Assembly: GCA_023251875.1 (NCBI GenBank)
Contig: JAHEXY010000001.1
Location: 310,001-374,000 of the forward strand
Direction: 5' to 3'
Length of the DNA: 64,000 nucleotides
DNA from: Bacteroidota bacterium
GTDB lineage: Bacteria; Bacteroidota; Bacteroidia; JAHEXY01
Positions within the stretch are counted from its first letter, which is position 1; every line of letters starts with the position of its first letter. Made by a program: the position numbers and the translations under genes. The notes beneath the pieces are model-generated. The model ran no database searches. It worked only from the letters and a program-made list of their open reading frames with translations, and was not told where the DNA came from. Of this stretch, positions 33,852-58,371 are shown piece by piece.

Positions 33852-35807
33852 CTATTCCAATTTTCCCAATTGCTCAGTAAACTCAGCCCATCTTTCCATT
33901 TCTGTTTCTAAATCTTGTTTGAGTTTATTGTATTTGGCAAGTGTATCATTTGATTCAGCACTTTTATAAAAATCAGGATCGAGAAGTTGTTCATCGAGCA
34001 CAGCAATTTCTTTTTCTAATTGAGCAATTTTATTTTCTGATTGGATAATATTATTTTTTATTTTTCTGATATCATTTTCTAATTGCTTTTTTTGATCTTT
34101 ACCGATTTGGCTATTGGTTTTTTCCTGGGTAGCTACTACCCCCTCTCCTTTGGAGAGGGTTGGGGAGAGGCTTTTTGTTTTTTCAATTTCTTGAAAACTT
34201 TCCACTTTTCGGCTTCTTAAAAATTCATACACATCACCAATATGTTCTTTAATATTACCATGCCTGAATTCAAAAACTTTTTGTGTAAGGCCTTGTAAAA
34301 AATCACGATCGTGAGATACAATTAATAATGTACCATCATATTCTAATAATGCTTCTTTAAGAATATCTTTCGAACGCATATCGAGGTGATTGGTAGGCTC
34401 ATCCATAATCAAAAGATTTACGGGTGTAAGCAATAATTTACACAATGCTACTCTGGCTTTTTCTCCTCCTGATAAAACTTTTACTTTTTTATCTGCGTCT
34501 TCACCACTAAATAAAAATGAACCCAATAGAGTTCTCACTCTCGAACGTATTTCATCTGGGGCAATATCATTAATGGTTTCAAAAATGGTGCGTTCTCCAT
34601 CTAAAAAATCAGCTTGGTTTTGTGCGTAATACCCAATATTTACATTGTAGCCAAGGTTTACAGTACCTTCGCAGGTTTCATGATTAACAATAATTTTTGA
34701 TAGGGTAGATTTTCCCTCTCCATTACGGCCAACAAAAGCAATTCTCGCGCCTCTATCAACAATAAAATTAACGTCAGAAAAAACTACATGATCGGCATAT
34801 TGTTTTTTTACATCTTTTCCTTCCACTACAATTTTACCAGATCGTGGGGCAGGAGGGAAGCGAAATCGAATGGCTTTGTTATCTTCATCATCAATTTCAA
34901 TTCTGTCAATTTTGTCGAGTTGTTTCAATTTCGACTGTACTTGCCGGGCTTTAGAAGCCTTGTAACGGAATCGGTCAATAAATTTTTCAGTATCCTCAAT
35001 TTGTTTTTGTTGGTTTTTAGCCGTGGCAATTTGTGTTTCTCTTCTCTCTTTACGCAGCTCAACATATTTTGAATAAGATGCTTTGTAATCATAAATTTTT
35101 CCCATCGAAATTTCAATGGTTCTGTTGGTAATAGTATCTAAAAAAGCCCTATCGTGCGAAACGAGAATAATTGCACCATGATGACTTTTTAAAAAATCTT
35201 CTAACCATTGTATCGATTCAATATCCAAGTGATTGGTAGGCTCATCCAACAATAACAAATCAGGTTTTTGCAATAATATTTTTGCTAGTTCAATACGCAT
35301 GCGCCAGCCACCGCTAAACTCATCGGTAAGCCTGTTGAAATCTTCTCTTTCAAAACCCAGTCCCAATAAAACTTTTTCCATCTCACCTTCTAGCGAATGG
35401 CCGCCAATAATGTGGTAACGCTCACTGGCTTCATTCATATTGTGAATGAGTTTCATGTAGCTGTCTGTTTCGTAATCGGTTCTTTCGGTAAGTTGTTGGG
35501 TATAGGCTTCCATCTTTTTTTCTAGCATACGTGCTTCGGCAAAAGCTGTAGCTGTTTCTTCTAGAACAGTTCTCCCATTATGGTGGGTCATTTCTTGTGG
35601 AAGATAACCAATGGTGGTATTGTTGGGCATTGCAATTTGACCTTCGTCAGCTGCCTGAAGGCCTGCAAATATTTTTAACATGGTTGATTTACCTGCACCA
35701 TTGGCTCCTGTTAAGCCAATTCTATCTTTTTCGGTAACGTTAAAAGAAATATCGTTATATAAATATCTTCCGCTAATTAAAACAGAAACCCTGTTTACTG
35801 AAATCAT
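33852..35807 (-). CDS. ABC-F family ATP-binding protein
   Basis: Two ABC domains (GANGAGKST, DEFSGGWRMRIELAKILL, DEPTNHLDI; GRNGEGKST, SGGEKARVALCKLLL, DEPTNHLDM). Confidence 0.95.
   Translation of the reverse strand: MISVNRVSVLISGRYLYNDISFNVTEKDRIGLTGANGAGKSTMLKIFAGLQAADEGQIAMPNNTTIGYLPQEMTHHNGRTVLEETATAFAEARMLEKKMEAYTQQLTERTDYETDSYMKLIHNMNEASERYHIIGGHSLEGEMEKVLLGLGFEREDFNRLTDEFSGGWRMRIELAKILLQKPDLLLLDEPTNHLDIESIQWLEDFLKSHHGAIILVSHDRAFLDTITNRTIEISMGKIYDYKASYSKYVELRKERRETQIATAKNQQKQIEDTEKFIDRFRYKASKARQVQSKLKQLDKIDRIEIDDEDNKAIRFRFPPAPRSGKIVVEGKDVKKQYADHVVFSDVNFIVDRGARIAFVGRNGEGKSTLSKIIVNHETCEGTVNLGYNVNIGYYAQNQADFLDGERTIFETINDIAPDEIRSRVRTLLGSFLFSGEDADKKVKVLSGGEKARVALCKLLLTPVNLLIMDEPTNHLDMRSKDILKEALLEYDGTLLIVSHDRDFLQGLTQKVFEFRHGNIKEHIGDVYEFLRSRKVESFQEIEKTKSLSPTLSKGEGVVATQEKTNSQIGKDQKKQLENDIRKIKNNIIQSENKIAQLEKEIAVLDEQLLDPDFYKSAESNDTLAKYNKLKQDLETEMERWAEFTEQLGKLE
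34137..34171. repeat. dispersed GGAGAGGG repeat inside the ABC-F gene (encodes LSPTLSKGEGV)
   Basis: taccCCCTCTCCTTTGGAGAGGGTTGGGGAGAGGc, same family as copies near 42315, 42838, 47926 and 57042. Confidence 0.75.
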
Positions 35808-47894: not shown

Positions 47895-47980
47895 GGGTTT
47901 TCTGAAAAATATTTTTTTACTATCCTTTCCCTTACTCCCTCTCTATGAGAGAGAGCGTAATTTTGTTTTTCAGAAAACCC
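47895..47980. repeat. 86-bp MITE-like element with perfect 15-bp terminal inverted repeats around a GGAGAGGG-family core
   Basis: GGGTTTTCTGAAAAA (47895-47909) and its exact reverse complement TTTTTCAGAAAACCC (47966-47980). Confidence 0.8.
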
Positions 47981-56311: not shown

Positions 56312-56860
56312 TTAATGTTTTTCAACCGGAGAACCATCAGGAGTTGTTGTTTTAACCGGAGTTAAATCTTCTGCCGGTGTGGCATTAGGATCCGGCAATA
56401 CTTTTCCTGTAATTTTTAATACTCTAGTTGGAGTTTTAGCATTAGAAGTTACCGTTACTGTTTTTGTAAACGGACCAACTCTATCTGTTGCATACTTTAC
56501 TTTAATAGAAGCGCTTGCTCCCGGAGCAATAGGCTCCTTAGGCCAAGTTGGAACTGTACACCCACAAGATCCTTTGCAATTGGTAATAATCAAAGGACTT
56601 TTACCTGTGTTTTTAAATTTAAACTCTCTGTTGCCATCGGCATTGTGTTCAACCGTACCATAATCAATTGTTTCAGTTGCAAAATTAATATCTGGCGCAT
56701 TTGGATCGTCAACAACTGGAGCCGTTTGTGTTGTTGGGGCTACTGTAGGTGCCGGTGTAGGCGTTGTTGTTTTTTGTTGCGCAAATAGGGTTTGCGTAAA
56801 TAAAATTGCAAGTGCTACAATAAACACTCTTAACATTGAACTTAGTTTCATAATTTTCAT
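56312..56860 (-). CDS. DUF1573 domain secreted protein
   Basis: Signal peptide; DINFATETIDYGTVEHNADGNREFKFKNTGKSPLIITNCKGSCGCTVPTWPKEPIAPGASASIKVKYAT. Confidence 0.92.
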   Translation of the reverse strand: MKIMKLSSMLRVFIVALAILFTQTLFAQQKTTTPTPAPTVAPTTQTAPVVDDPNAPDINFATETIDYGTVEHNADGNREFKFKNTGKSPLIITNCKGSCGCTVPTWPKEPIAPGASASIKVKYATDRVGPFTKTVTVTSNAKTPTRVLKITGKVLPDPNATPAEDLTPVKTTTPDGSPVEKH

Positions 56861-57020
56861 AATTAAATTGTTTAGTAAATTTTTTGCTTAAACATTTGTA
56901 ATGCTTGAATTACAATATTAGAAATGTTCTTCAATAAAATTAAACTATTTTAGATATTTTATGGTAAATAGGGTGCAAATTAGTGTTAATGATTTGTTAA
57001 TGATTAAAAATACAAGGAAG

Positions 57021-57097
57021 AAGTTTTAAAAAATTTATTTTTTACCCTCTCCCTTACCCTCTCCAAAGAGGGATAAAATGCTAATTTTTTAAAACTT
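57021..57097. repeat. 77-bp MITE-like element with perfect 15-bp terminal inverted repeats around a GGAGAGGG-family core
   Basis: AAGTTTTAAAAAATT (57021-57035) and its exact reverse complement AATTTTTTAAAACTT (57083-57097), flanking TACCCTCTCCCTTACCCTCTCCAAAGAGGGATAAAATG. Confidence 0.8.
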
Positions 57098-57099
57098 AT

Positions 57100-58371
57100 A
57101 TGACAAGAAACACATTTAGGCTGGTTATTTTATTTGGGGCACTCACCATTATTGGTATTATTGTAATTCAAACGTATTGGCTACGTAAGGCCTTTGATAA
57201 TAGTGAAAAGCAGTTTAACCAAAGCATACATATTGCATTGCAAAATGTAGCTGAAAAAATGATGACTTATAACGAGCATTCCCCCACCAATCAAAATCCG
57301 GTAAGCCAGCTTTCCTCTAATTATTTTGTAGTAAATGTAAATAGCGTTATTGATGCCAATGTATTGGAATATTACCTTAAAACAGAATTTGCTTTACGCA
57401 CTATTAGTATTGATTACGAATACGGTATATACGATTGTTCGAGTGATAAAATGGTATACGGCAATTACATCAGTGCAGATAGTACCCAAATAAAGGAAAA
57501 AATAAAACATCCTTTGCCTAAGTATAGCGAGTATATCTATTACTTTGGAATCAATTTCCCCAATAAAAGATCTTACCTCATTAACCAAATGGGAATATGG
57601 TTGTTTTCGTCAGTGATTCTTTTTTTACTCATTGTATTTTTTACGTATACGCTGTTTGTTATTTTTCGTCAAAAACGTTTATCTGAAATTCAAAAAGATT
57701 TCATTAATAATATGACGCATGAATTTAAAACGCCCATCTCAACAATAGCTATTTCTGCTGATGTATTGATGCAAAAAGAAACTGTAAATAACCCACAGCG
57801 CTTGCTTAATTATGCCAGCATTATTAAAGAAGAAAATGAAAGATTGCGTTCACAAGTAGAGCGGGTGTTGCAAATGGCAAGTATTGAAAAAAATGAATTT
57901 AAACTCAAGAAAGAAAAGCTAGATATACATGATGAAATTAAAAAAGTGGTACAGAATTTTGACGCTACTTTAAAAAAACAAGAAGCCATAGTACATTTTA
58001 ATTTTAATGCAAACAATACCCTTATTGAAGCAGATAAAGTTCATTTTGTAAATGTAATTTACAACTTACTCGACAACGCTCTTAAATACACCGAAAAAGT
58101 ACCGGAAATAACTATCAGTACCGAAAATGTAGAAAAACAATTATTATTAAAAATTAAAGACAATGGTATTGGTATTGCTCCTGAACATCAAAAAAAAATA
58201 TTTGATAAATTTTATAGAGTACCTACAGGAAATATACATAATGTAAAAGGCTTTGGTTTGGGATTAGATTACGTTAAGAATATTGTAAAATCTCATAAGT
58301 GGAAAATTAATTTATTAAGTGAGATTGGCAATGGGACGGAGTTTGTGATTACGATATTGCAAGGGCAATAA
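57100..58371 (+). CDS. sensor histidine kinase
   Basis: Two TM segments, H-box FINNMTHEFKTPISTIAIS, N-box YNLLDNALKYT, G-boxes DNGIGIAPEHQKKIFDKFYRV, GFGLGLDYVKNIV. Confidence 0.93.
   Translation: MTRNTFRLVILFGALTIIGIIVIQTYWLRKAFDNSEKQFNQSIHIALQNVAEKMMTYNEHSPTNQNPVSQLSSNYFVVNVNSVIDANVLEYYLKTEFALRTISIDYEYGIYDCSSDKMVYGNYISADSTQIKEKIKHPLPKYSEYIYYFGINFPNKRSYLINQMGIWLFSSVILFLLIVFFTYTLFVIFRQKRLSEIQKDFINNMTHEFKTPISTIAISADVLMQKETVNNPQRLLNYASIIKEENERLRSQVERVLQMASIEKNEFKLKKEKLDIHDEIKKVVQNFDATLKKQEAIVHFNFNANNTLIEADKVHFVNVIYNLLDNALKYTEKVPEITISTENVEKQLLLKIKDNGIGIAPEHQKKIFDKFYRVPTGNIHNVKGFGLGLDYVKNIVKSHKWKINLLSEIGNGTEFVITILQGQ

Follow-up and report, generated by a model that had tools for sequence, protein, structure and literature searches.

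Among the described systems closest to the element reported here are the IS5-derived MITEs BrickBuilt, MITE293, and MITE700 of Porphyromonas gingivalis (PMC4596501), which likewise are non-coding, multicopy sequences of a Bacteroidota genome with terminal repeats matching IS5-family elements. A lineage-specific burst of an IS-derived MITE within a Bacteroidota genome has also been described in Cardinium (PMC9769881), and the REP and GTAG/CGTC-tagged palindromes (PMC3733652) resemble our element in being short intergenic G+C hairpins, the core of ours occurring also by itself, in a repeat some 40 bp long. The feature that we analyzed lies at 57021–57097 of a stretch of 64,000 nucleotides (G000:C11:310001-374000; hereafter, the window) of a 4.81-Mb draft genome. 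From sequence comparison we consider it highly probable that this feature represents one degenerate member of a family of non-autonomous MITEs of about 85 bp, for whose movement in trans IS5-family (NF033581-type) transposases were responsible; the family, though apparently undescribed in the literature searched, is of an ordinary kind—i.e., an IS5-derived MITE.

The two 15-bp arms, AAGTTTTAAAAAATT (57021–57035) and AATTTTTTAAAACTT (57083–57097), proved on re-check to be exact complements, as the original prediction had stated, and enclose a spacer of 47 nt; the string quoted there as lying between the arms is indeed inside that spacer, but its 30 nt are merely the middle. Between the right 15-bp arm and the kinase ATG stand only the 2 nt "AT" (57098–57099), and not the 3 bp formerly given. 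The other perfect-arm repeat of the window is the copy at 47895, of 86 bp overall, whose arms (GGGTTTTCTGAAAAA) are also exact, so that the two copies do have, as had been claimed, unlike arms that are complementary in each. Two repeats in the window with perfect arms of at least 15 bp and a spacer of 15–110 nt compare with a mean of 0.07 and a maximum of 1 among 60 dinucleotide shuffles. The RNA of 57015–57115 has a predicted fold of −22.6 kcal/mol (z = −3.9), wherein the upstream pyrimidine block, rather than the block of the core hairpin, is paired with AGAGGG. The ends of the 57021 copy are far from the family consensus, its arm sequence is common to no other copy, and its flanks, AGGA and ATGA, are identical in three of four bases and would be unconvincing by themselves as a target duplication; the 17-nt length assigned to its terminal repeats in Table 1 was taken from the target-duplication offset of the whole family.

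Table 1. Features of the 57021 locus and its twin in the window.
Feature	Position in window	Strand	Remarks
Left terminal inverted repeat, 17 nt, AGAAGTTTTAAAAAATT	57019–57035	+	inner 15 nt (57021–57035) match the right arm exactly
Interior, 47 nt, with CT-rich core	57036–57082	+	
Core hairpin CCCTCTCCAAAGAGGG	57057–57072	+	second pyrimidine block CCCTCTCC ahead, at 57045–57052
Right terminal inverted repeat, 17 nt, AATTTTTTAAAACTTAT	57083–57099	+	adjoins the kinase ATG
Histidine kinase (HisKA + HATPase_c), 423 aa	57100–58371	+	start codon conserved in orthologues
DUF1573 protein	56312–56860	−	divergent neighbor
Second copy of the MITE family	47895–47980	+	independent model match, E = 7e-10

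A covariance model built from eight arm-flanked copies on other contigs found about 100 copies in the genome—this figure being the count of the model search, with part of the first-look candidates scored—and both window copies were independent matches (E = 1.1e-7 for the one at 57021; for the other, cf. Table 1). Nearly all the copies were retrieved together with 1.5-kb flanks, 93 of which copies could be anchored reliably (loci L049–L144, L006, and the window). The members are about 85 bp long and have no coding capacity. The genome contains, moreover, 192 CCCTCTC..GAGAGGG cores, some of them flanked by long arms, against none in a reversed control. That the feature were simply a chance inverted repeat in A+T-rich intergenic DNA, a reading to which the A+T-rich arms would lend themselves, has next to no probability in view of the excess of perfect-arm repeats over the shuffled expectation and of the independent model match; the existence of a multicopy family refutes such an origin. 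As side observations, three copies (L133, L135, L139) have near their centers, inside the core, a further small palindrome, CCCGA..TCGGGA, and a copy in another genome (L153, in G026, at about 1500–1580) lies within an open frame of 685 codons that continues beyond the element, which arrangement may represent an in-frame insertion, the flanking peptide resembling by eye a class III nucleotide cyclase.

The extent of the terminal repeats was deduced from the target duplications. Identical 4-mers flank 26 of the 93 copies at an offset of 17/17 versus 4.9 with shuffled partners, and 50 copies versus 24 match in at least three of the four bases; since these duplications occur at 17/17 from the inner end of the arm, we took the terminal inverted repeat to be 17 nt long, with the consensus GGGnAGTTCnAAAAATT or GGGCTTTCTAAAAATT. 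The duplicated words consist almost wholly of A+T (TTAA eight times, ATAA five, TTAT three, along with others). Related MITEs in other families of the class possess other matched ends—GGGCACTTC, GGGCATCTC, and GGCACCTC in G026—with GGGCATCTC constituting the matched ends in G095 and G342 as well. In G095 one such end adjoins an IS5 transposase, which protein, used as a query across the class, led to further IS5 elements with ends of the MITE type. Thus, elements of the IS5 family (NF033581) elsewhere in the class bear the ends of the MITE, one of them with the 17-nt sequence GGGCGGTTC(C/T)AAAAATTG: in L311 the ends GGGCGGTTCCAAAAATTGATTTTTT and GGGCGGTTCTAAAAATTG, separated by 1304 bp, enclose a transposase with a score of 273.8 bits against NF033581 (cut-off, 140), while 4-bp duplications like those of the MITE border two other elements, TATA in L312 and TTAA in L317. 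What the MITE and these elements have in common is confined to the ends and a few adjacent bases, the MITE interior not being that of an internally deleted IS. The earlier description of the repeat as MITE-like is therefore borne out by some 100 copies, by terminal inverted repeats and target-site duplications, and by the match to autonomous IS5 elements in other genomes. Elements of about 125–260 bp with the same IS5-type ends and different interiors were also observed in G026 and G095 (L279, L295, L303) and are further MITE types with those ends in common.

Within the draft assembly of the window's own genome, a profile search recovered no DDE_Tnp_1 transposase above the cut-off, nor was there any match to the G095-type IS5 transposase; the family therefore looks orphaned. 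A helper transposase in the same genome is usual for active MITEs, but is not required for old ones. Unless a helper sits in an assembly gap, the family is, on these searches, probably no longer mobile there. The only trace of DDE_Tnp_1 in that genome, the 57-codon fragment L320 (G000:C14:168302-168430), was rejected as a helper because it reads by eye like the C-terminus of an IS982 transposase and has no pair of MITE-type ends around it; and an isolated matching end at G000:C18:118801 was discarded as the end of an IS, the transposase being absent at that place.

The arm complementarity that the original prediction expected throughout the genome was found: within the 93 copies an arm differs from its own partner by a mean of 1.15 of 15 positions versus 3.68 for shuffled partners, though this set, having been assembled with a structural model, still leans toward pairing. 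Perfect arms are not the rule, occurring in 26 of the 93 copies. Seven pairs among the eight seed copies, which seeds were chosen for having arms, change on both sides, so that "covariation-like" was an apt description; a selected RNA structure, however, is not demonstrated by covariation itself. Since a single transposase binds the two ends of a transposon, these resemble each other, and that circumstance, too, would match the arms. Much of the variation is held in shared arm classes (C, G, or T at position 14; AGTTC or CTTTC), which classes suggest that matched ends were inherited from several source lineages, and one-sided differences, often C/T, are frequent. Most of the pairing, as read from the aligned arms, fits several such lineages followed by one-sided drift.

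A different reading, concerned with the maintenance of the arms and not with the identity of the MITE, is that quasipalindrome correction, a template switch made at the hairpin while the DNA is being replicated, keeps diverse arms matched after insertion, with one arm being copied onto the other and paired changes arising in single events without selection. That hairpins arise and are preserved through template switching is known (PMC8794818). In its favor, the two arms of 13 of the 93 copies, including the one at 57021, are each other's closest counterparts among all the arms of the genome, with a few of those 13 being affected by one-base anchoring shifts, and six copies have at least six inverted matches outside the terminal repeat, where 0.4 would be expected. 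Against its routine operation, pairing is at the background level beyond position 22, the changes in many copies are one-sided, and part of the flank excess stems from palindromic targets such as CTTAAG. We thus consider this process unlikely as the general keeper of the arms; the private matched arms of the 13 copies could derive from either lost source lineages or homogenization by template switching.

With respect to the kinase, orthologues of 50–58% identity start at the same residue, with MTRNT(I/F)RL, and in 66 of 67 cases the region upstream of the orthologue is free of any similar inverted repeat or core. These relatives belong to the same class only, which sampling does not permit a direct empty-site reading at the kinase. 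Since the starts agree and those upstream regions are devoid of the repeat, the present ATG is ancestral, and the element would be an addition upstream within this lineage. The possibility that the MITE had created the start codon was rejected because the orthologues already begin at the present ATG. A direct repeat, ACAAG (57012–57016 and 57103–57107), and an in-frame ATG at 57000 are present, so that an empty site would read MIKNTRNTFRL. The position directly ahead of the ATG, together with the strong predicted fold, might suggest a selected cis-regulatory structure, in RNA or DNA, that controls the kinase through occlusion of the start region or as a promoter. But the same element occurs at about 100 unrelated sites and is missing ahead of nearly all the orthologues, a simple scan of the element found no Bacteroidota promoter consensus (TTTG or TAnnTTTG), the window gave no Rfam match at the gathering score—sub-gathering matches to a microRNA family and whalefall-1 being weak and taken as chance—and the orientation relative to the kinase is the one disfavored in this genome, all of which makes such control highly unlikely. 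A degenerate IS5-type MITE copy would instead have inserted directly upstream of a pre-existing start codon. Should transcription of the kinase begin ahead of the element, the leader would contain a foldback that stops 2 nt short of the ATG and has its pyrimidine-rich strand in the RNA, and that structure would most likely lower kinase expression.

To describe orientation, we wrote the CT-rich strand as plus and called genes simply as the longest open reading frames. For copies between genes of the same direction, 48 have a minus-strand gene on either side and 6 a plus-strand gene on either side (binomial p = 3e-9); of the remainder, 20 lie between convergent and 11 between divergent genes, while 8 fall within a called minus-strand ORF. 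This bias of 48:6 implies that the purine-rich strand of the MITE is nearly always in the mRNA in this genome. The 57021 copy, in the disfavored orientation relative to the kinase, is in the common one relative to the divergent DUF1573 gene. As a general feature the bias was rejected, the counts in G342, G026, and G095 being together 13:8, which ratio is not significant. Neighboring copies within 100 kb agree in orientation in 53 of 80 pairs, and on contig C19 copies separated by a few kb are oppositely oriented, in each case along with the surrounding genes; replication was consequently set aside as the driver, gene direction being the better predictor. Since the orientation of neighbors is only weakly shared, transcription predicts it better than the chromosomal domain does, some effect of which—for example, on C11—is possible. 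The kinase-sense strand of the 57021 copy contains 15 C and 6 G, and we conjecture that a pyrimidine-rich RNA, C-rich and G-poor, could load Rho, that being a possible reason for the bias.

The CT-rich core also occurs outside the MITE. A second repeat of about 40 bp, without terminal repeats, has the form AATTCCAAAC-nn-CCCTCTCC..GGAGAGGG-TTAGGGWGAGG and is found between co-directional genes, often 9–17 nt ahead of the start codon and mostly in one orientation (L007, L012, L013, L017, L021–L024, L026, L028, L047); cores similar to that repeat are present at 34141 and 42341 of the window. In G342 (L281, L290, L330, and others) the whole unit, ACCTCTCCCTGACCCTCTCC..GGAGAGGGnnTGTTTGGAA, is contained within IS5-type ends (GGGCATCTCTAATAA), as if, from its sequence, it had been captured by a MITE. 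In L154 and L258 (G029:C12:48187-48271) a core of the MITE type is placed within unrelated arms of about 24 bp (ACTATTTGCAATTATAAAATAGCC), which shell is not of the IS5 kind. The core's shells thus comprise several IS5-type ends (G000, G026, G095, G342), the unrelated arms of G029, and the free repeat. That the core palindrome would be an element of its own, travelling in different end-shells, with its strand under transcription-coupled selection in this genome, is an idea that we hold to be quite unlikely; such selection might act, for example, if a pyrimidine-rich RNA resembling a Rho-loading site were to stop transcription inside operons.

Still less credence can be given to the unit's being a REP-type palindrome that a RAYT (Y1) transposase, and not an IS5 enzyme, would have moved in the form of single-stranded DNA. 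The core does resemble an abundant, free REP-like repeat, as the hairpin count above indicates, and the genome has seven Y1_Tnp matches; but a core-type repeat is present at one of those seven loci only, the aligned copies show neither a GTAG nor a CGTC tag at the foot of the hairpin, and the 4-bp target duplications and terminal repeats are those of IS5 elements, which last two features strongly disfavor that mechanism for the whole unit. For the core alone, movement of that kind is possible.

The preferred account is, then, that the copies would descend from several source lineages, their ends matched because one transposase must bind both, and would have drifted after insertion on one arm side at a time. 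An IS5-MITE origin names the source of a repeat that could otherwise be read as a regulatory hairpin before a signalling gene. About 100 natural insertions of one element are thereby available within one genome, through the 48:6 bias the influence of a small foldback on transcription in Bacteroidota can be addressed directly, and homogenization by template switching has its test sites in those copies whose matched arms are private.

Compared with the known systems, the present family is much shorter than the P. gingivalis MITEs, has ends that vary between copies, has for its interior a CT-rich palindrome that occurs outside the element as well, and is without a parent IS found in the same genome. 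The REP elements differ from our unit in that the latter has terminal repeats and target duplications, shows no tag, and is without a consistent linkage to Y1 genes. The NF033581-type IS5 elements, for which L311 is an example, are complete insertion sequences of about 1.3 kb with a transposase, whereas the MITE has none. The Cardinium MITE, finally, derives from a different IS family, IS982, and there intact parental copies are present.
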